The notes beneath the pieces were generated by a model, which saw only the letters and a program-made list of their open reading frames with translations, was not told the DNA's origin and did not search any database. Of a stretch of 64,000 nt of DNA, positions 5,897 through 57,063 are shown piece after piece; position 1 is the first letter of the stretch; the number at the start of each line of letters is the position of its first letter. Origin of the DNA: Clostridiaceae bacterium M8S5. Lineage in GTDB: Bacteria; Bacillota; Clostridia; Tissierellales; MCWD3. The translations under genes were made by a program, and so were the position numbers. The stretch covers positions 1,240,001-1,304,000 of the forward strand of contig CP118523.1 of NCBI GenBank assembly GCA_029227815.1, read 5' to 3'.

Positions 5897-6046
5897 CAGA
5901 CTGTAGACAAAAGCCCAATTTCTGCGCCCGTGTTAAAATTTCCGTTGCTCACTTACCTCTAAGTAAGCTCTGCTACTCAATTTTAACACGCCTTGAAATT
6001 GAACTCTTACTATAGTCTGTTATCTTGATGACTTTGTCATCAAGAT
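5897..6046 (+). repeat. ~150-bp terminator-associated repeat, copy 1
   Basis: The body (5897-6019) has imperfect terminal inverted repeats, CAGACTGTAG and CTATAGTCTG. It folds into a long imperfect hairpin that includes GTGTTAAAATT pairing with AATTTTAACAC. A separate perfect hairpin at the 3' end (6022-6046) pairs ATCTTGATGAC with GTCATCAAGAT. No protein is encoded. Related copies lie at 7980, 43676 (reverse), 49255 and 51082. The size, terminal inverted repeats and flanking duplications suggest a miniature, non-autonomous mobile element; no matching transposase is in the window. Confidence 0.75.
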
Positions 6047-38765: not shown

Positions 38766-39030
38766 CAAAAAAATCCTTGAATAAAATTCAAGGACGAGCA
38801 GAGCACGCGGTACCACCTTAATTGCGTCATAAAGACACCTCTTAGCGTTGTAAAATAAAGCTTTGTAACGGAGCCAACCGTTATTCTCTAATTTCGGGTT
38901 TCAAGAATACTGCTCAAGAGTGAGTATATTTTGTAGGTAGTATCGGTTTTCAGCAAATACCGACTCTCTGTAACTTACCATGGTAAAATAGTGTCTCTGT
39001 CATAGCATTGTATTTAATTTCGTGCATTAA
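38766..39030 (-). promoter_or_regulatory. Leucine T-box leader of leuCDB
   Basis: Read on the minus strand, the leader has the T-box core AAGGTGGTACCGCG (38806-38819), a specifier-like region with the candidate CUC Leu codon (complement of 38922-38924) in CTCACTCTTGAGC, and a terminator TCCTTGAAT/ATTCAAGGA followed by seven T. Uncharged tRNA-Leu should stabilise the antiterminator and switch the operon on. Confidence 0.92.
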
Positions 39031-41804: not shown

Positions 41805-41821
41805 CCAATATAATATAACAA

Positions 41822-42078
41822 AAGCTGTGACGGAGAGCGTGTTTGAATATTGTAATCGAAGAGAGTCAATGGTTGGTGCAAATTGATATTGCGAGTAAAC
41901 ACTACTCACTCTTGAGCTGAGGTTCTGAAAATAATAGTAAGAGCTATCTGGTTCACCGACATTATAGGTGGAAAGTTTCGATGAAACTTTATTAAGAGGT
42001 TTTTGTATTTATGCAAAAACTATTAAGGTGGTACCGCGGGAATATTTACTCGTCCTTTTATTAGGGCGAGTTTTTTTA
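41822..42078 (+). promoter_or_regulatory. Leucine T-box leader of leuA
   Basis: The T-box core AAGGTGGTACCGCG lies at 42025-42038 and the candidate CUC Leu specifier at 41905-41907, in CTACTCACTCTTGAGC. The terminator ACTCGTCCT/AGGGCGAGT (42048-42071) is followed by seven T. The specifier region matches that of the leuCDB leader, so the two units respond to the same tRNA. Confidence 0.94.
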
Positions 42079-45107: not shown

Positions 45108-45758
45108 ATGTATAGAATAAATTTATTAGAAGATGAAAAGAATCTCAATGATTTACTGACATTTCATTTGCAAAACGAAGGGTGGCAAATACAGTCATTT
45201 ATCCGAGGGTTAGATGCGTTAGAGCATATAAACGATGATGTTGATCTATGGGTCTTAGATATCATGGTTCCTGATTTGGATGGCTATGCTTTAATAAAAA
45301 AAATAAAAGAAGTTAAAGATGTACCAGTGATTTTTATATCTGCTAGAGATAAAGATATAGATAGAGTAATTGGTCTTGAATATGGTAGCGATGATTACAT
45401 AACTAAGCCATTTTTGCCAAGAGAACTCATATTGAGAATAGAGAAGTTGTTATCAAGAAATACTTCAAAGGATATAATAAATGTAAACGGATGTTACACT
45501 CTTGATAAAAAGAGAAGAGAATTATTATTAGATAACGAGGTCATAGTGCTTACGTCAAAAGAGTTTGATTTAGTACAAGTCATGATAGACTCACCTAGAA
45601 AGGCTTTTTCTAGAGATGATTTATTAAACAATGTATGGGGTGATGACTATTTTGGAAGCGAAAGAGTTGTTGATGATTTAGTCAGGAGGATTAGAAAGAA
45701 ATTGCCAAATTTAAAGATAGAAACAGTATATGGTTATGGGTATAGGTGGATTGAATGA
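45108..45758 (+). CDS. OmpR-family response regulator
   Basis: The 216-residue protein has a receiver domain with acidic LLEDE at 6-10, phospho-acceptor Asp51 in VLDIMVPDLDG and Lys in ITKPF. The winged-helix domain ends ETVYGYGYRWIE. Ribosome site GTGAGGTGA. Its stop codon overlaps the start of the kinase gene (ATGA), so the two are cotranslated. Targets unknown. Confidence 0.93.
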   Translation: MYRINLLEDEKNLNDLLTFHLQNEGWQIQSFIRGLDALEHINDDVDLWVLDIMVPDLDGYALIKKIKEVKDVPVIFISARDKDIDRVIGLEYGSDDYITKPFLPRELILRIEKLLSRNTSKDIINVNGCYTLDKKRRELLLDNEVIVLTSKEFDLVQVMIDSPRKAFSRDDLLNNVWGDDYFGSERVVDDLVRRIRKKLPNLKIETVYGYGYRWIE

Positions 45759-47170
45759 AGCGCAAATCATTGTTTAAAAAATATATAATGTGGTCTTTGA
45801 TAATAATATTTTCCTTATTATTATTGCTAATCAGTATAACTTATAAGAGTATTAAAGATTTTTTTACAGATGAGACATACAATACAATAGAATACGCACA
45901 AAATTTAAGAACGGATACAATAAAAAAGAGATTGGATGCTAACGAAGATTTTCATATAACAGACGAAATAATAAATCAAAATTTTCGAGCAGTGGGTCAT
46001 ATAATATTAGTATATGATGAGAGTAAAAACGAGATTCGTGCTTTCACAAATAGCTTATCTTCAATAAATAAAGATGTTCTAAAGAAAAATATAATAGAAA
46101 TAAACATGAATAATTATAATAAAAAAAGGTATGTTCAAACTATTCAGGGGAAGAAGCTATACTACGTAATAAAAAAGATTGATTCTAAATTTGTGGCTAG
46201 AAAAGTATTTAACTTAAAAAAAGGAATATTAGGGCAAAGAGATCCTGCCAGAGTAAGTGGATATCTGTTATCATATATGTGGGAAACATACTCAAATGAA
46301 TTAACTAGAAATATTTTTAGTCAATTCATTATAGTTGTATTTTCTTTTGTGATAATTATATTAGTTACATCATATATCATGATAAAAAAAATATCTCGCA
46401 GATTTAAAAAACTGGAAGTAGATGTTGCAAACATAGCTCAAATGAAGTTAGATAAACCTATAGTAGTCGAGGAGGATGATGAAATAGGTAGACTAAGCCG
46501 AAGTATAGATAAAATGAGGATTCAATTGAAAAAGCATGACGAAGATTTGAGGAATTATTTCCATAGTATTTCACACGAGTTAAAGACTCCAATTATGATA
46601 ATAAAGGGATATACTGATTCGATACTTTGCAAGAAATATCCTAAAGGAAATTTGGATAGTTCACTATATGTAATAGATGAAGAGATAGATAGGCTAGATA
46701 CTATGGTTAAAAATATATTATATCTTAATAAAATTGATTTTATATCAAAAGGTTATTCCAGCAAAGATAAAGTTGATGTTGTGAAATTGATATACAATGT
46801 ATCAGAAAGATTTAAGAATCTTGATCATTCTATAAAATGGCAATTAGATTTGCCAGATTTTTATACTGTAAGAGGGCAACAAGAACAATGGGAATCAATT
46901 CTTAATAATCTATTAGACAATCAAGTGAGATATGCAGATAAAAAAATAAAGATATCAATAGTAGATGAAAATATACAAATAAGTAATGATGGAGAACATA
47001 TGAGTCCAAGAATTTTAGAAAAGTTATTTAATCCATTTCACAAAGGTGAAAAAGGAAGCACAGGGCTGGGGCTATATATTGTAAAGAGACTGCTGAACTT
47101 AAATAAATATGATATTATAGCTAGAAATGAAGAAGTAGGAGTAATTTTTTGTATAAAAGATATAAGTTAA
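45755..47170 (+). CDS. Sensor histidine kinase
   Basis: The 471-residue membrane kinase has segments at about 11-31 and 187-210 with a sensor region of about 150 residues between. HAMP follows (about 212-265), then H-box SISHELKTP, N-box NNLLDNQVRYA, and G-boxes SNDGEHM and GSTGLGLYI. The N-box carries Gln in place of a more usual residue (DNQVR), a modest oddity. It pairs with the preceding regulator. Confidence 0.93.
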   Translation: MKRKSLFKKYIMWSLIIIFSLLLLLISITYKSIKDFFTDETYNTIEYAQNLRTDTIKKRLDANEDFHITDEIINQNFRAVGHIILVYDESKNEIRAFTNSLSSINKDVLKKNIIEINMNNYNKKRYVQTIQGKKLYYVIKKIDSKFVARKVFNLKKGILGQRDPARVSGYLLSYMWETYSNELTRNIFSQFIIVVFSFVIIILVTSYIMIKKISRRFKKLEVDVANIAQMKLDKPIVVEEDDEIGRLSRSIDKMRIQLKKHDEDLRNYFHSISHELKTPIMIIKGYTDSILCKKYPKGNLDSSLYVIDEEIDRLDTMVKNILYLNKIDFISKGYSSKDKVDVVKLIYNVSERFKNLDHSIKWQLDLPDFYTVRGQQEQWESILNNLLDNQVRYADKKIKISIVDENIQISNDGEHMSPRILEKLFNPFHKGEKGSTGLGLYIVKRLLNLNKYDIIARNEEVGVIFCIKDIS

Positions 47171-47233
47171 TTTTTATTATTGGTATTACAATAGTAAACT
47201 TTATGTGAATATAAATGAATAAATAGCTTAAAT

Positions 47234-47268
47234 AGAGAACTACCTTAGGTTAAAGGCAGTTCTCTTTA
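47234..47268 (+). terminator. Terminator of the second two-component operon
   Basis: AGAGAACTACC pairs with GGCAGTTCTCT (one mismatch) and is followed by a T-rich tail. It lies between convergent genes. Confidence 0.75.
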
Positions 47269-47289
47269 TTTAGCTACGATGATATGTAA

Positions 47290-47496
47290 CTAATCATCAA
47301 TCTTATACGTGAAAGGATATACATCTTCAGCTGTCTTATCTAGTTTATTTGCAAATGCTTTAGCGTCTATTTCTTCTACAGTGTTTCCATCTTTATAAAC
47401 CTTCATATTCCAAACTTCACCATCTTCTTTTACAAGCAAATCTGCTTTATAGGTTGAGCCATCATCAAATGTTACACTTCCTTTTTTCCAAGGCAT
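47290..47496 (-). CDS. Small acidic conserved-type protein, unknown
   Basis: The protein of about 68 residues begins MPWKKGSVTFDDGSTYKADL and reads as a compact beta-rich domain. It has no signal or membrane segment. The start at 47496 has AAAGGAGA about 8 bases upstream; the longer frame from 47514 would read through that site. It is transcribed alone, divergent from the MATE gene. Function unknown. Confidence 0.7.
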   Translation of the reverse strand: MPWKKGSVTFDDGSTYKADLLVKEDGEVWNMKVYKDGNTVEEIDAKAFANKLDKTAEDVYPFTYKIDD

Positions 47497-47639
47497 ATAC
47501 ATTTCTCCTTTCATTTAGTTATAGTAATATTTTTATCAAATTTATAAAAAAAATACATATTATCACATACTAAATAATGCTTGCTTTTACGTCGTATAAT
47601 TTGGTATATTAATTCTAAGACACACAAAAAGGAGAGAAC

Positions 47640-49001
47640 ATGTTTAATAAAAATAATATAAGAGAAGTACTAAAACTCTCCCTGCCAGCTGTAGGAGAAA
47701 TGATACTATATATGCTGATATGGGTATTTGATACTATGATGGTAGGTAATTATGGAGGAAAAGTTAGTGTAACAGCAGTTGGACTTACATCTGAAATTAT
47801 ATATACATTTATAAATATACTAATCGCTATGGGCATAAGTGTTGGAATTACATCATTAGTTGCAAGAGAATTGGGAGCAAAAAACAAGCAAAAAGCTGAA
47901 GAATACGCTAGTTTAGGGTTTGTATGTACAATTGCTATTGCTTTAATAGTTTCACTTATATTCTTTATATTTCCATCGCAGATATTGACAATGGCAAAAG
48001 CAAAAGGGAAAGTTCTATTCTATGGCGCAAGATATATGAGGATTTGTTCTATAGGTACTTTTTTTAATATGGCTCAGACTTCAATAAACGCTGTTTTAAG
48101 AGGTAGTGGAAATACGAAGACACCACTTAAAATATCTATAGTAGTAAATGTAGTTAATATAACTTTAGACTGGGTGTTGATATACGGGAAATTTGGTTTA
48201 CCAGAGCTGGGAGTATCAGGAGCTGCTATAGCTACTACTACGGCAAATATATGCGGTATGGCATTAGCTCTTAGTTATACAATGAAATCAGGATATATCA
48301 AACCAAAACTTAAATATATAAAAAACTATAGTGTTAAAAGATTAAAAGGACTTATAAATCTATCTATACCATCAGCACTTCAAGAAGGTGCATTTAGCAT
48401 AAGTAGGTTAATTAATATATTTATGATTATGTTATTAGGAGATGCGTCTTTTTCAGCAAATCAAATAACTACTACAATAGAATCACTTTCGTATATGCCG
48501 GGGTGGGGATTTGCTGTAGCAGCAACAACATTAGTTGGTAATAAGGTTGGTGCTAAAGATTATAAAAAGGCAAGAGAATACATGAATATATGTCTGCTAT
48601 TTGGAACAGGTATAATGGCATTGTTAGCAGTAGTGTTCTTACTTTTCCCAAATCAATTAATAGCCTTGTTTATAAAAGATTCTGAAACACAGACTATATC
48701 TTTAGGAGCATCATGTTTAGTTATAGCATCTATTGAGCAGATACCAATAGCTATATCCATGATAATAGGTGGAGGGTTAAAAGGAAGTGGAGATACTAAA
48801 AGTCCGTTCATAGTATCTGTTATATCAAACTGGGCATTCAGATTGCCAATGATGTATTATTTTATATATGTAAATAGAAAGCCAGTAACATATGCATGGA
48901 GAATAGCAGCTGTTCAATGGTTTATAGATGCAATATTACTTCTTATTATATATAAGCGAAGGACAAATGAATGGAAGAATCTAGAGAAAAAGTTCAATTA
49001 A
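47640..49001 (+). CDS. MATE-family multidrug exporter
   Basis: The 453-residue protein has two homologous six-segment halves with family motifs (ISVGITSLVARELGA; FAVAATTLVGNKVGA) and AVLRGSGNTKTP/GLKGSGDTKSP in equivalent places. It should expel cationic drugs using a sodium or proton gradient. Ribosome site AAAGGAGAG. It is followed directly by the promoter of the exporter D leader. Confidence 0.93.
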   Translation: MFNKNNIREVLKLSLPAVGEMILYMLIWVFDTMMVGNYGGKVSVTAVGLTSEIIYTFINILIAMGISVGITSLVARELGAKNKQKAEEYASLGFVCTIAIALIVSLIFFIFPSQILTMAKAKGKVLFYGARYMRICSIGTFFNMAQTSINAVLRGSGNTKTPLKISIVVNVVNITLDWVLIYGKFGLPELGVSGAAIATTTANICGMALALSYTMKSGYIKPKLKYIKNYSVKRLKGLINLSIPSALQEGAFSISRLINIFMIMLLGDASFSANQITTTIESLSYMPGWGFAVAATTLVGNKVGAKDYKKAREYMNICLLFGTGIMALLAVVFLLFPNQLIALFIKDSETQTISLGASCLVIASIEQIPIAISMIIGGGLKGSGDTKSPFIVSVISNWAFRLPMMYYFIYVNRKPVTYAWRIAAVQWFIDAILLLIIYKRRTNEWKNLEKKFN

Positions 49002-49004
49002 CAT

Positions 49005-49033
49005 TTGACATCATAGATGGAATATAATAGAAT
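49005..49033 (+). promoter_or_regulatory. Promoter of the exporter D cassette
   Basis: TTGACA (49005-49010) and TAGAAT (49028-49033) are 17 bases apart. The same arrangement occurs upstream of exporters E (50834) and F (52724). Confidence 0.75.
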
Positions 49034-49075
49034 TTAATAGTGATAAATTATATAATCATAAGGGAGGTCGTTAAA

Positions 49076-49162
49076 ATGAAAAAAATAAATAATAATGCCA
49101 ATGTTAACACTACAATTTTTAATAAATATATAATAACGGCCAGTGCAGTTTATTCTATATAA
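49076..49162 (+). CDS. 28-codon leader peptide of exporter D
   Basis: The small ORF starts at ATG with an AGGGAGGTCG ribosome site. It reads MKKINNNANVNTTIF, then NKYIITASAVYSI and stop. A second copy of the same length, with conservative changes, precedes exporter E (50906-50992). It lies between a promoter and a terminator-like hairpin (49185-49217), the usual layout of a ribosome-mediated attenuator. The SD segment GGTCGTT can pair with AACGGCC near the end of the ORF (one wobble). Its role is inferred to be regulatory. Confidence 0.75.
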   Translation: MKKINNNANVNTTIFNKYIITASAVYSI

Positions 49163-49184
49163 TTTATCCGAAAAATTGTTTATT

Positions 49185-49217
49185 AGACCACAGGTTGTAT
49201 AGCTTGTGGTCTTTATT
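49185..49217 (+). terminator. Candidate attenuator of exporter D
   Basis: AGACCACA pairs with TGTGGTCT, followed by a T-rich tail, 22 bases after the leader stop codon. The equivalent hairpin before exporter E has changed loop-side bases but retains stem pairing. Confidence 0.7.
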
Positions 49218-49254
49218 ATTTAAAGTAGAGATGTCTGGGGGATGGGGCATCTCT

Positions 49255-49397
49255 CTGACTGTAGACAAAAGTCCAATTTCTGAGTTGTCGTTAAATTTCC
49301 GTTGCTCACTTACCTCTAAGTAAGCTCTGTTACTCAATTTTAACACGCCTTAAATTGAACTCTTACTAAGTTTTCTATCTAGATGACTTTGTCATCT
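49255..49397 (+). repeat. ~150-bp terminator-associated repeat, copy 4
   Basis: The left terminus CTGACTGTAG and much of the body match copy 1. The right part is more diverged (AAGTTTTCT in place of the usual inverted end), and the accessory hairpin AGATGAC/GTCATCT (49381-49397) is followed by a T-run. A hairpin AGAGATG/CATCTCT (49227-49254) lies immediately to the left. It probably shares one insertion event with copy 5 and was duplicated with the exporter cassette. Confidence 0.7.
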
Positions 49398-49420
49398 ATT
49401 TTTTTAAAAGGAGGAATAAT

Positions 49421-49480
49421 ATGTTAAAAACAAGAACAGAAACAAAAACTATAAATTTAGAAGAGAAGCAATTTACGTGA
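49421..49480 (+). CDS. 19-codon ORF before exporter D
   Basis: ATG at 49421 follows AAAAGGAGGAA and opens MLKTRTETKTINLEEKQFT, then TGA. A 19-codon homologue precedes exporter E (51280-51339), with the same ending QFT-TGA. The strong ribosome site and length conservation in two cassettes support translation. It may be a second leader peptide acting on exporter translation. Confidence 0.6.
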   Translation: MLKTRTETKTINLEEKQFT

Positions 49481-49527
49481 GCTAGGAAAAGTGACAATCT
49501 GACAAAAGAAAAAGGAGCGACTTAATT

Positions 49528-50793
49528 ATGGGTATAGTAAAAAAGATATTTAAACCATATATGGGGTTACCTAAAGCTGTATATGTAATATTTATTTCAA
49601 AAATAGTAAATGCTATGGGAGCATTTGTAATTCCATTATTGACATTAATACTAACAAAGAAAATAGGGCTAGCTGAAGATGATGCTGGATTTTATATCGC
49701 GTTGCTTGGATTTATATACATGCCAGCAGCACTAATCGGAGGCAAGATAGCGGATAGTTTTGGAAGAAAAAAAGTAATAGTGATATTTGGTACATTAGGA
49801 GCAGCTTGTTATTTTTTATGTAGCACTATAGAAACTAGTATAACTACAGTATTTTTGATAGGAGGGGCGTCATTTTTTTTCGGAATTGCTGGACCAGCAC
49901 ATGATGCACTTATTGCAGATATAACAACTCCTGAAAATAGAGAAGGAGCATACTCACTTTCATATTTGGGGCACAATATGGGGTATGCATTAGGACCTGC
50001 TATAGGAGGATTGTTATTTGAGAATCATTTTAGATGGGTATTTATAGGCGATGCAGTAACTGCCATATTAGCTATAAGTTTAGTTTTAATATTTGTTAAG
50101 GATACTTTGTCACAATCTAAAGAAGAGGTATTTGATGAAAATAGAACTATGGAAAAGCATGTAAATGGGTCGGTTATTAAAGTATTATTAGATAGACCAA
50201 TATTAATATTCTATGCTATTATAATGTTTGGATATTCATTTGTGCGTTCTGAGTGGAGTTTCTTAGTACCGCTACATACCGAAGCAAATTATGCTAATAG
50301 TGGAGCAAAATTGTTTGGTTATATAGCAAGTTTTAATGGAGCTGTAGTAATGCTTTTTACAGCAACTGTAACAGCTTTATTAGTTAAAACGAAAATCAAT
50401 AATATAAGAAAGATAGCTATAGGTGGAGTGTTTCATGCACTAGGATTAGGTATGTTGGGATTTTTCAGTAATAAAACAGCTTTTTTTGTATCTATGTTTA
50501 TATTTACAATAGGAGAGATTATTGTTGTTGTTTCAGCATCTCCATTTATAATGAACCATACGCCAGCTTCACATAGAGGAAGAGTAGGAGCCTTACTACC
50601 TACGATAATTGGATTTGGACATGTATTAGGGCCACTTATAACTGGGAAAATACTTCAAGTTGCATCAATAGAAACTATGTGGAAAATAGTACTTGTAATC
50701 ATGCTTATATTCTCATATTTTATGATTTTATTAGAGAAAAACGAAGGGAGATTAGGAGGAAAAGTAAAGCAAAGACAACAAATTAATGCGTAG
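49528..50793 (+). CDS. MFS exporter D, possibly TetA(P)-like
   Basis: The 421-residue protein has about 12 membrane segments with motif A as GGKIADSFGRKK near residue 72, and GPAIGGLLFEN near residue 152 (motif C region). It is a close paralogue of exporter E and more distant from F, and is unrelated in detail to exporters A-C. From memory the N-terminal layout (FKPYMGLP, NAMGAF, LTLILTKKIGL) recalls clostridial tetracycline exporter TetA(P), which is controlled by attenuation; this is unverified. A leader peptide, attenuator and second small ORF lie upstream. Confidence 0.85.
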   Translation: MGIVKKIFKPYMGLPKAVYVIFISKIVNAMGAFVIPLLTLILTKKIGLAEDDAGFYIALLGFIYMPAALIGGKIADSFGRKKVIVIFGTLGAACYFLCSTIETSITTVFLIGGASFFFGIAGPAHDALIADITTPENREGAYSLSYLGHNMGYALGPAIGGLLFENHFRWVFIGDAVTAILAISLVLIFVKDTLSQSKEEVFDENRTMEKHVNGSVIKVLLDRPILIFYAIIMFGYSFVRSEWSFLVPLHTEANYANSGAKLFGYIASFNGAVVMLFTATVTALLVKTKINNIRKIAIGGVFHALGLGMLGFFSNKTAFFVSMFIFTIGEIIVVVSASPFIMNHTPASHRGRVGALLPTIIGFGHVLGPLITGKILQVASIETMWKIVLVIMLIFSYFMILLEKNEGRLGGKVKQRQQINA

Positions 50794-50833
50794 AATCAAA
50801 AAATGAAAAAATACAGAAAATTATAATTATTAT

Positions 50834-50862
50834 TTGACATCATACTTACAATATAATAAAAT
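50834..50862 (+). promoter_or_regulatory. Promoter of the exporter E cassette
   Basis: TTGACA (50834-50839) and TAAAAT (50857-50862) are 17 bases apart. Confidence 0.72.
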
Positions 50863-50905
50863 TTATGGTGATGGATTATATAAATACATAAGGGAGGTCG
50901 TTATA

Positions 50906-50992
50906 ATGAAAAAAATAAATAATAATGCTAATATAAACATTACAATTTTAAATAAATATATAATAACGACCAGTGTAGTTTATTCTATATGA
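50906..50992 (+). CDS. 28-codon leader peptide of exporter E
   Basis: The ATG follows AGGGAGGTCG and opens MKKINNNANINITILN, then KYIITTSVVYSI and stop. It has the same length and most residues of the exporter D leader; the stop changes from TAA to TGA. Conservation of the peptide, not just the DNA, supports translation. The SD part GGTCGTT pairs exactly with AACGACC near the ORF end. Confidence 0.75.
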   Translation: MKKINNNANINITILNKYIITTSVVYSI

Positions 50993-51014
50993 TTTATCCA
51001 TAAAATAGCATATA

Positions 51015-51049
51015 AGACCACAGGTTGTATTAACCCGTGGTCTTTATTT
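51015..51049 (+). terminator. Candidate attenuator of exporter E
   Basis: AGACCAC (51015-51021) pairs with GTGGTCT (51037-51043), with inner GGTT/AACC, followed by a T-run. It is the homologue of 49185-49217. Confidence 0.75.
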
Positions 51050-51057
51050 TTTTGAAA

Positions 51058-51080
51058 GAGAGATGTCTGGGGCATCTCTC
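51058..51080 (+). repeat. Left flanking hairpin of repeat copy 5
   Basis: GAGAGATG pairs with CATCTCTC, directly before repeat copy 5. A related but diverged hairpin (AGATATATGCC with GGCATCTATCT, 51232-51256), followed by eight T, lies on the other side. Confidence 0.6.
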
Positions 51081-51081
51081 T

Positions 51082-51225
51082 CAGACTGTAGAAAAAAGCC
51101 CAATTTCTGCGTTGTTGTTAAAATTTCCGTTGCTCACTTACCTCTAAGTAAGCTCTGCTACTCAATTTTAACAGCCCTCGACTTGAACTTTTACCACAGT
51201 CTGCTATCTAGATGACTTTGTCATC
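51082..51225 (+). repeat. ~150-bp terminator-associated repeat, copy 5
   Basis: The termini are CAGACTGTAG and CCACAGTCTG. The core with GTTAAAATT/AATTTTAAC and the accessory hairpin GATGAC/GTCATC (51211-51225) are present. It occupies the same place in the exporter E cassette as copy 4 does in D. Confidence 0.75.
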
Positions 51226-51231
51226 ATCTAT

Positions 51232-51264
51232 AGATATATGCCTAGGGCATCTATCTTTTTTTTG
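51232..51264 (+). terminator. Terminator, right flank of repeat copy 5
   Basis: AGATATATGCC pairs with GGCATCTATCT (one mismatch) around TAG and is followed by eight T. It resembles the hairpin at 51058-51080. Confidence 0.7.
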
Positions 51265-51279
51265 AAGGAGGTATAAATT

Positions 51280-51339
51280 ATGTTAAAACTAAGAACAGAA
51301 TCAAAAATTACAAATCTAGAAGAGAATCAATTTACGTGA
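51280..51339 (+). CDS. 19-codon ORF before exporter E
   Basis: ATG at 51280 follows AAGGAGGTA and opens MLKLRTESKITNLEENQFT, then TGA. It is the homologue of 49421-49480 with several substitutions but the same length and ending. Confidence 0.6.
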   Translation: MLKLRTESKITNLEENQFT

Positions 51340-51386
51340 ACTAGAGAAATAACAATCTCACAAAAGAAAAAGGGGCGATTTTAATC

Positions 51387-52646
51387 ATGAGCATAGTAAA
51401 AAAGATATTTAAACCATATATAGGATTACCTAGACCAATATATGTAATATTTATTGCAAGAATAGTAAATGCAATGGGTGCATTTATATTTCCATTATTA
51501 GCATTGATACTAACAAAGAAAATTGGATTAGTAGAAGATGAGGCAGGATTATATGTATCACTACTTGGATTTGTAGTTATACCTGCAGCGTTAATTGGTG
51601 GGAAACTAGCAGATAGCTTTGGAAGGAAAAAAATTATAGTGATATTTGACTTATTAGGTTCAGTTTGTTATTTGTTATGCAGTGCTGTAGAGACTAGTAT
51701 GGTAACAGTATACCTAATAGGAGGAGCCTCATTCTTATTTGGAATTGCTGGGCCAGCACATGATGCATTACTTGCAGATATAACAACTCCTGAAAATAGA
51801 GAGGGAGCATATTCACTTTCATATTTGGGATTTAATATAGGATTTGCATTGGGGCCTGCAATAGGAGGATTATTATTTGAAAACTACTTTAAATGGATAT
51901 TTATTGGAGATGCAGTGACAGCTGTGCTAGCTACGAGCTTAATTTTAATTTTTGTAAAAGATACCCTATCAAAAGCTAAAGAAGAGAAATTCGATGAAAA
52001 TAGAGCTATGGAAAAGCATGTTGAAGGATCTGTTTTTAAAGTACTATTAGATAGACCGATACTAGTGTTGTACGCTCTTATAATGTTTGGATATTCATTT
52101 GTATACTCTGAGTGGTGGTTTTTAGTGCCATTACACACTGAAGCAAACTATGTTGGTAATGGGGCAAAATTGTATGGTTATTTAGCTAGTTTTAATGGAA
52201 TTGTAGTTGTGTTACTTACAGCAGTTGTAACAGCTTTATTAACTAAAATGAAAATCCACAATATTAGAAAAATAGCTATAGGTGGAGTGCTTTATGCGCT
52301 AGGATTAGGTATGTTGGGATTCTACAGTAATAAGATAGCGTTTTTTGTAGCTATATTCATATTTACAATAGGAGAAATAGTAGTTACTGTTTCCTCATCT
52401 CCGTTTATTATGAATCATACACCAGCTTCGCATAGAGGAAGAGTTGGAGCCTTGCTACCTACTATAATTGGTATTGGAAGTGTACTAGGACCACTTGCAA
52501 CTGGAAAAATACTACAAATAACTACTATAGAAGTTATGTGGAAAATAATACTTGTAATGATGCTTATGTTTTCATATTTTATGGTTTTGTTACAGAAAAA
52601 CGAAGTGAAATTAGGAGGAAAAGTTGAACAAAGCCAAGATGATTAA
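51387..52646 (+). CDS. MFS exporter E, possibly TetA(P)-like
   Basis: The 419-residue protein is closely similar to exporter D throughout, with motif A GGKLADSFGRKK. The gene and its regulatory leader are offset by about 1.86 kb from those of D, showing tandem duplication of the whole cassette. The proteins and leaders have diverged, so the duplication is not very recent. Ribosome site AAAAGGGGCG. Substrate unknown. Confidence 0.85.
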   Translation: MSIVKKIFKPYIGLPRPIYVIFIARIVNAMGAFIFPLLALILTKKIGLVEDEAGLYVSLLGFVVIPAALIGGKLADSFGRKKIIVIFDLLGSVCYLLCSAVETSMVTVYLIGGASFLFGIAGPAHDALLADITTPENREGAYSLSYLGFNIGFALGPAIGGLLFENYFKWIFIGDAVTAVLATSLILIFVKDTLSKAKEEKFDENRAMEKHVEGSVFKVLLDRPILVLYALIMFGYSFVYSEWWFLVPLHTEANYVGNGAKLYGYLASFNGIVVVLLTAVVTALLTKMKIHNIRKIAIGGVLYALGLGMLGFYSNKIAFFVAIFIFTIGEIVVTVSSSPFIMNHTPASHRGRVGALLPTIIGIGSVLGPLATGKILQITTIEVMWKIILVMMLMFSYFMVLLQKNEVKLGGKVEQSQDD

Positions 52647-52723: not shown

Positions 52724-52752
52724 TTGACATATATATAGCTGTAGAATATAAT
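52724..52752 (+). promoter_or_regulatory. Promoter of exporter F
   Basis: TTGACA (52724-52729) and TATAAT (52747-52752) match consensus exactly with a 17-base spacer. Confidence 0.85.
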
Positions 52753-52773
52753 AAAAATGTTGCACTTACAAAG

Positions 52774-52824
52774 ATGAAGATTGCACGCAATTTATTAGCA
52801 ATATATGAACATAATATTATATAG
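52774..52824 (+). CDS. Possible 16-codon leader ORF of exporter F
   Basis: ATG at 52774 opens MKIARNLLAIYEHNII and stops at TAG. There is no good ribosome site. A hairpin TATAGTAA/TTACTATA follows at about 52819-52848 and overlaps its stop. It is included because exporters D and E have leader ORFs; support is weak. Confidence 0.25.
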   Translation: MKIARNLLAIYEHNII

Positions 52825-52874
52825 TAAGCCCATAAATAAATTACTATAATGTAATAGATATTAAGGAGAACAAA

Positions 52875-52889
52875 ATGAATGAGATATAA
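52875..52889 (+). CDS. Possible 4-codon ORF overlapping the exporter F start
   Basis: ATG at 52875 lies 6 bases after AAGGAG, ideal spacing, but reads only MNEI then TAA. The exporter F ATG (52879), in another frame, has 10-base spacing. Ribosomes may start on the mini-ORF and reach the exporter by re-initiation, or simply use 52879. Confidence 0.3.
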   Translation: MNEI

Positions 52890-54132
52890 AATAAAGCAAA
52901 TAAAAAGAATATATGGTCATTTTCATAGAGATATTTACATAGTATTTTTCGCTAAACTCATAAATTCCCTAGGAGCCTTTGTGTTTCCATTACTTACATT
53001 GATACTTACTAAAAAATTGGGTTTATCAAAAAAAGAGACAGGTATATGGATAGCAGCCGCAGGGATAATATATGCAATGGCAAGTATTTTGGGAGGCAAA
53101 TTAGCGGACAATTTTGGTAGAAAAAAGATAATAGTGATATTTAATATGCTTGGAGCATCTGTGTACATAATCTGTGGTTTAATGCCCGAGAGCTTTGAGT
53201 TGATATATCTGATAATGGCAGCTTGTGTATTAATGATTGTTGCCGATCCCGCACTGAATGCATTAGTAGCAGATATTACTAAGCCCAGTGAAAGAGAAGG
53301 TGCTTACTCGCTGATATACTTGGGTTCTAATGTTGGATATGCTATAGGACCAGCTATAGCTGGGATGTTATTTGAAAATCACTTGAATTTGATATTTATT
53401 GGAGATGCAGTTACAGCAATAATTTCTACATTATTACTACTTATATTTGTAAAGGAGTCTATAAATAAAACAGAAGATGAACATATAAGTAGAGAAAAAG
53501 AAAAACGTGTTGAAGGTTCATTAAAAAGTGTATTACTAGATAGAAAGATACTAATATATTTTTCGTTAGTGTTATTTGGATATTATTTCGTATACTCACA
53601 ATGGGGATTCTTAGTTCCTTTACATATGGAAAATTTATATCCAGGACATGGAGCGAGTTTCTTTGGGAAATTAACTATAATAAATGGACTTACAGTTATT
53701 GTTGCAACACCGTTAATAACATCATATTTCAGAGGAATAAGCAATCTTTTGAAGATATTTTTTGCAGGGTTGCTGTATGTGGTAGGATTTGGAACATTTG
53801 CATTTGTTGATTTCAAGCTAGGGTTTTTGATACTAGTTGTGATAATAACACTTGGAGAAGTAACCATTACCACTAACTGTATGCCGTTTATAGCTAGTCA
53901 TTCACCAGCTTCGCATAGAGGTAGAATAAACTCAGTTATACCAATTATAATGGGAGCTGGATATGTAATAGGACCATTTGTAATGGGATGGTTTGTAAAA
54001 TACAAATCTTTTGCAAGTGCATGGAAATTCATAGGTATATTTATGTTTATATTTGCATCTTTAATGTTGTGGCTTGAAATATTAGAGAGAAAGAAACGTA
54101 AGAAAAATAGAAAAACTAGAAAGGATGTCTAA
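52879..54132 (+). CDS. MFS exporter F
   Basis: The 417-residue protein has about 12 membrane segments with motif A GGKLADNFGRKK and a lysine/arginine-rich C-terminal tail. It is paralogous to D and E but more diverged, and lacks their 28-codon leader and repeat. It has its own consensus promoter at 52724. Substrate unknown; an efflux role is the family expectation. Confidence 0.84.
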   Translation: MRYKIKQIKRIYGHFHRDIYIVFFAKLINSLGAFVFPLLTLILTKKLGLSKKETGIWIAAAGIIYAMASILGGKLADNFGRKKIIVIFNMLGASVYIICGLMPESFELIYLIMAACVLMIVADPALNALVADITKPSEREGAYSLIYLGSNVGYAIGPAIAGMLFENHLNLIFIGDAVTAIISTLLLLIFVKESINKTEDEHISREKEKRVEGSLKSVLLDRKILIYFSLVLFGYYFVYSQWGFLVPLHMENLYPGHGASFFGKLTIINGLTVIVATPLITSYFRGISNLLKIFFAGLLYVVGFGTFAFVDFKLGFLILVVIITLGEVTITTNCMPFIASHSPASHRGRINSVIPIIMGAGYVIGPFVMGWFVKYKSFASAWKFIGIFMFIFASLMLWLEILERKKRKKNRKTRKDV

Positions 54133-56907: not shown

Positions 56908-57063
56908 TAATGTGTAACGGAGGCCGCAGGAATTATTAGTATTGCATTAGCAAGAAAGGAATTACTGCCGAAACATACTAGATATGTTGGGACTATGTTG
57001 AACAAATATAGTACTGTCTATTGTTGGTTACCCAGTCTACAATAGGAGTGCTGTTTCACATTA
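56908..57063 (+). promoter_or_regulatory. Lysine riboswitch (L-box) upstream of lysC
   Basis: Outer stem P1 pairs TAATGTG (56908-56914) with CACATTA (57057-57063). GGAGGCCGCA and ACTGCCGAA are in L-box-like positions, and internal stems include AACATA/TATGTT and CTATTGT (57018-57024) with ACAATAG (57039-57045). The first gene downstream is aspartokinase and the whole operon makes lysine, which agrees. Some positions look non-standard, so a covariance-model check would be needed to define it. Confidence 0.82.

Follow-up and report, generated by a model that had tools for sequence, protein, structure and literature searches.

The window analysed here is a stretch of 64,000 nucleotides (G000:C1:1240001–1304000) within a 4.68 Mb genome, from a family for which the search set contains just two genomes. 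Two MFS exporter genes, D and E, each follow a leader region (Table 1). The exporters are 79% identical paralogues and a third MFS paralogue is found after E at 52879–54132. This third gene has a perfect TTGACA-17-TATAAT promoter (region 52724–52879) and no leader of the D/E kind. Just upstream of the MFS array (45108–49001) lie an OmpR-type response regulator, a sensor kinase and a MATE exporter, and elsewhere in the window there are two T-box leaders and a lysine riboswitch (38787–39012 on the minus strand, 41818–42060 and 56910–57061). Against named Tet efflux models D and E score at best 79–81 bits, with a curated cut-off of 475; as the scores are far under all Tet cut-offs, an assignment as named tetracycline exporters was dropped. 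NorA and LmrP are distantly related proteins of known structure. A search of plasmid records for kin of D and E returned only distant MFS relatives of at most 35% identity.

Table 1. Features of the two exporter leaders and the genes that they precede (window coordinates).
Feature	Position	Strand	Remarks
Leader D promoter	49005–49033	+	TTGACA-17-TAGAAT
Segment 1 of D	49065–49072	+	Shine-Dalgarno region AGGTCGTT; SD GGGAGG at 49062–49067
D leader ORF	49076–49162	+	28 codons
Segment 2 of D	49135–49141	+	AACGGCC, within the ORF; partner is segment 1 or segment 3
Attenuator terminator T1 of D	49185–49221	+	Segments 3 and 4, then U run
Dispersed intergenic repeat copy	49247–49401	+	Outside the D switch
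D second hairpin-T structure	49380–49405	+	5' of the 19-codon ORF; sequence unrelated to T1
D 19-codon ORF	49421–49480	+	No sign of protein-level selection
MFS exporter D	49528–50793	+	PF07690
Leader E promoter	50834–50862	+	TTGACA-17-TAAAAT
Segment 1 of E	50895–50902	+	Shine-Dalgarno region AGGTCGTT; SD GGGAGG at 50892–50897
E leader ORF	50906–50992	+	28 codons
Segment 2 of E	50965–50971	+	AACGACC
Attenuator terminator T1 of E	51015–51051	+	Segments 3 and 4, then U run
Dispersed intergenic repeat copy	51080–51229	+	Outside the E switch; approximate ends
E second hairpin-T structure	51232–51263	+	Sequence unrelated to T1
E 19-codon ORF	51280–51339	+
MFS exporter E	51387–52646	+	PF07690

The promoter, the 28-codon ORF with a strong ribosome site and the 19-codon ORF that an earlier note on this DNA had described before each exporter are all present in both leaders, which have a mean column identity of 87%. 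The note had also called the terminators covarying. Hairpin-U terminators are indeed present in both leaders, with the hairpins at 49185–49212 and 51015–51043, but D and E show no covariation: the 5' arms are identical, while in the 3' arm one G-U pair is replaced by G-C and one A-U pair by an A-C mismatch. True covariation of the terminator appears only across relatives.

The short peptides look conserved between D and E because the DNA itself is conserved. For the 28-codon ORF dS is 0.12 and dN 0.08, and for the 19-codon ORF these values are 0.09 and 0.14, against 0.60 and 0.13 for the exporter genes. The resulting dN/dS ratios of 0.7 and 1.5, which derive from few changes, give no clear sign of selection at the protein level, and the peptide conservation claimed in the earlier note thus mirrors nucleotide conservation. 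Gene conversion can be another source of the low dS.

A repeat of ∼150 bp, previously regarded as an element of each cassette, turns out to be a scattered genome repeat that adjoins the device. With the query used here it has 49 matches in the genome, and all 29 copies examined (partly overlapping) are intergenic, sometimes in tandem. The five core copies in the window are at 5942, 8025, the 20226 region (minus; 43755), 49299 and 51127. The repeat is highly structured and ∼130–150 bp long, with tandem copies spaced by about 177 bp. At the same place the sister genome G001 carries another dispersed repeat family, with over 100 matches. Its genome-wide intergenic scatter and the different repeat in G001 led us to drop the repeat as a component of the switch.

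Orthologues of the MFS genes have similar leaders upstream in G001 (exporter identity 66%), G246 (60%), a Clostridium MAG (54%) and the more diverged G015 (49%). These leaders contain AAGGAGGTCGTTNNAATG, an ORF of 26–32 codons, a copy of AACGACC near the ORF end and a terminator. An exact pattern that includes the AACGACC motif (segment 2, see below) was too strict and gave no matches in 391 genomes of the class. A pattern restricted to the Shine-Dalgarno region gave 18 matches, seven with a short ORF and five of them real leaders, and is not specific because the match count roughly equals that of the reversed control; it revealed the leader ahead of tiny-ORF operons in three genomes from a different genus. 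Eight leaders served to build a covariance model (R1), which was run over the order. Since the matches are mostly plain terminators, a match was kept only if it had the Shine-Dalgarno region, the ORF, segment 2 and the terminator together. The further members found in the order mostly stand directly before BmrC-like ABC exporters. A second model (R2), made from trimmed sequences and fitting full-length leaders poorly, picked up leaders in other parts of the class, upstream of ABC exporters, a GNAT acetyltransferase, a GyrI-like protein and tiny ORFs. E-values that come from the short calibrations are rough. A sample of the phylum yielded no convincing member beyond the class.

The tiny-ORF operons headed by the attenuator (L081 1860–2800, L083 1790–2240 and, on the reverse strand downstream of the leader, L159) comprise 3–8 ORFs of about 20–60 codons, each with a strong ribosome site. 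In L083 and L084 an ORF for a SpoU/TrmH-like rRNA methyltransferase comes after the tiny ORFs.

Nineteen leaders were aligned with their variable spacers trimmed and with segment 2 as the anchor; direct alignment of full leaders placed this segment wrongly. Four segments emerge. Segment 1 is the Shine-Dalgarno region, with the sequence AGGUCGUU, AGGUCGUG or AGGUCGUA. Segment 2, for example AACGACC or CACGACC, is complementary to segment 1 and is located 57–82 nt past it and 22–31 nt before the end of the ORF in all leaders. The ORFs have 21–32 codons and the terminator, the arms of which are segments 3 and 4, is found 7–32 nt past the stop codon. Segment 2 can pair either with segment 1 or, alternatively, with segment 3.

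Outside these four segments there is no conservation across the leaders, which excludes an aptamer. The leaders also have no credible match in Rfam, at the gathering threshold or at E 1, and a T-box or known riboswitch was dropped on this ground. A reading in which the leader senses a metabolite, a protein or amino-acid starvation instead of translation-blocking drugs, through a riboswitch, a protein-bound or an Asn-codon attenuator, could draw on the Asn-rich leaders of D and E (six of the 28 codons in D). Asn codons are not a family feature, however, and the genes downstream are exporters and resistance-like genes. Together with the Rfam result, this makes such sensing very unlikely.

The three pairings are well preserved when counted over the 19 sequences, which are not independent events. 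Helix 1:2 is 98% paired and its outer, last pair varies between U-A, G-C and A-U. Helix 3:4 reaches 97% pairing and four of its pairs covary; the alternative helix 2:3 reaches 92%, with two covarying pairs. Slid controls give 22–48%. The pairs that change in helix 2:3 shift jointly with the terminator (CCUAUG:CAUAGG:CUAUG versus CCUGCG:CGCAGG:CUGCG), and the terminator (3:4) and the overlapping, mutually exclusive antiterminator (2:3) both covary. The GC-rich leader of G015 uses different letters for the same three kinds of pairing. Because the alignment is anchored on segment 2, leaders that had been found without segment 2 were tested individually: the middle region was shuffled with dinucleotides kept and joint 1:2 and 2:3 pairing was scored. 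Joint pairing exceeds that of the shuffles in each case (p values of 0.002–0.016, combined about 1e-10), with p = 0.016 for D and p = 0.004 for E. The single-helix p values of D are only 0.05–0.06; its helix 1:2 includes a G-U pair and is not the minimum in the lone fold of D. With the start masked and the 3' arm of the terminator not yet made, helix 2:3 is the predicted fold in E, G157, G159, G160 and G015.

A strong Shine-Dalgarno sequence followed by an ORF is present in 19 of 19 leaders, from which translation is predicted. In every leader the first in-frame stop is located 22–31 nt past segment 2, a placement seen in 1–4% of shuffles; the leader ORF is therefore real and its end is positioned relative to segment 2. 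This stop placement bears on the possibility that there is no regulation at all, and that constitutive terminators and chance short ORFs were simply copied when the exporter was duplicated. The likeness of D and E alone proves little here, since they are 79% identical paralogues. The occurrence of the same design before unrelated genes in several families, with both alternative structures covarying, likewise argues against this possibility, which we regard as extremely improbable.

The encoded peptides are not conserved across the 19 leaders and even homologous leaders encode different ones. Segment 2 is read in frame 2 in six leaders, frame 1 in ten and frame 0 in three, giving for example I-T-A-S, A-R-P-M and N-D-L-R, respectively. 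The only peptide resemblance noticed is that some MFS leaders share a loose Leu-Ile-Lys stretch. Judged from these comparisons, what is conserved is the RNA and not the peptide, and the sensor is likely to be the position of the ribosome near the leader start rather than the peptide sequence. An arrest-peptide attenuator, as in erm or cat, would have the drug stall the ribosome at a defined codon via the nascent peptide and throw the switch there. The D and E peptides are alike, and several MFS leaders share the loose [NT]-L-I-K at residues 9–17 or so. Within the family, however, the peptides are unrelated whereas the RNA motif persists across three reading frames, and dN in the ORF is not clearly below dS. 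We reject this mechanism as the main reading because the peptides are not conserved, and consider it unlikely. Of the stalling attenuation suggested in the earlier note, ribosome-mediated transcription attenuation thus stands on comparative evidence, and the new arrest-peptide family does not.

We propose, with a probability of roughly 0.78, that each leader acts as a transcription attenuator gated by ribosomes, in which three pairings exclude one another: 1:2 as anti-antiterminator, 2:3 as antiterminator and 3:4 as terminator. Ribosome-mediated transcription attenuation of the exporters as such is strongly supported by the sequence comparisons. In a leader free of ribosomes, helices 1:2 and 3:4 would form and transcription would stop. 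During normal translation a ribosome would cover segment 2 while 3:4 forms, with the same outcome. A ribosome held at or near the start codon would mask segment 1 and leave segment 2 free to capture segment 3, and the polymerase would continue into the exporter gene. From the spacing, a ribosome stalled within about the first ten codons should leave segment 2 untouched, but segment 1 should be masked as well only if the stall lies close to the start, by the held ribosome or by another queuing behind it. The inducer would probably be an antibiotic that targets the ribosome and halts initiation or early elongation; readthrough of the leader, drug induction, the kind of drug and the exporter substrate are what we infer. 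The attenuator model leaves the bypass of the second hairpin-T structure of D and E unexplained, and some of the leaders in relatives head tiny-ORF operons rather than resistance genes.

All 17 leaders outside the window have a further hairpin behind T1, mostly with a similar stem and a U tail of its own. The 3' arm of T1 is more complementary to the 5' arm of its own T2 than to that of the T2 in other leaders, with means of −11.7 and −9.0 kcal/mol, respectively (permutation p = 5e-5, uncorrected for kinship). Near-identical tandem stems, such as CCATAGG..CCTATGG twice, are seen in L125, L126, L127, L133, L094, L108, L104 and L109. D and E have no matching T2 and carry the other hairpin-T structures of Table 1 instead. 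The second layer suggests either a relay, with the opening of T1 carried over to T2, or a simple duplication of terminators. As a tentative extension, which we consider possible and somewhat doubtful, the leaders may represent an undescribed RNA class of clostridia in which the Shine-Dalgarno sequence of the leader itself serves to sense ribosomes and the on-signal is relayed down tandem terminators (off 1:2, 3:4, 5:6; on 2:3, 4:5), with reuse ahead of unrelated resistance genes and tiny-peptide operons.

Attenuation of a similar logic has been shown experimentally for bmrB, vmlR and cplR (PMC4191407, PMC9226507, PMC10201436). Expression of bmrCD is induced by lincomycin, erythromycin and chloramphenicol, but not by kanamycin or gentamicin, and the response requires translation of bmrB, a 162 bp ORF in which all three structures lie within nucleotides 60–162 of the coding region (PMC4191407). 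The D/E leaders have in common with Bacillus subtilis bmrB-bmrCD a translated leader ORF, a terminator, antiterminator and anti-antiterminator, and a multidrug exporter downstream, and many of their relatives, like bmrB, sit before BmrC-like ABC exporters. They differ in that the terminator comes after an ORF of 21–32 codons, the anti-antiterminator is built from the Shine-Dalgarno sequence and the D/E exporters are MFS and not ABC proteins. Compared by published layout, they are not members of the bmrB type because the bmrB structures are all inside the coding region. In one relative (L133 2540–2730, in G021) a BmrC-like ABC exporter is preceded by a leader ORF of 60 codons, two terminators and another short ORF, a layout that is intermediate between the D/E type and bmrB.

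For vmlR of B. subtilis and cplR of Clostridioides, lincosamides and pleuromutilins act via arrest at the start of the uORF (PMC9226507, PMC10201436). Their switch between anti-antiterminator, antiterminator and terminator is uORF-dependent, as proposed here. In contrast to the 21–32-codon ORFs and the MFS or ABC exporter genes of D/E-type leaders, their uORFs are conserved and have three codons (MIN, MR[I/M]), with ABCF protection proteins encoded downstream; the uORF lies inside the anti-antiterminator hairpin and the cplR terminator also hides the SD of the main gene. By layout the D/E-type leaders thus fall outside the vmlR type too. The tetA(P), erm, cat and mef/msrD leaders (named in the earlier note or reviewed in PMC5418344) share a short leader ORF that controls a resistance gene, but in most of them arrest depends on the particular drug and peptide, and several act on translation, whereas the D/E-type peptide is not conserved (tetA(P) being compared by description only). 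The pairings predict a mode of action like that of the bmrB, vmlR and cplR attenuators, but with an anti-antiterminator made from the Shine-Dalgarno sequence. Among the open-access papers searched, we found no description of such a leader.

Through the proposed switch many clostridia would couple drug export to ribosome blockage, and what it seems to sense is the site at which the ribosome is held, not one particular drug or peptide. Its searchable RNA signature may lead to unrecognised inducible resistance genes, including the tiny-peptide operons, and it would offer a clean system for how transcription reads a block at the start of translation.
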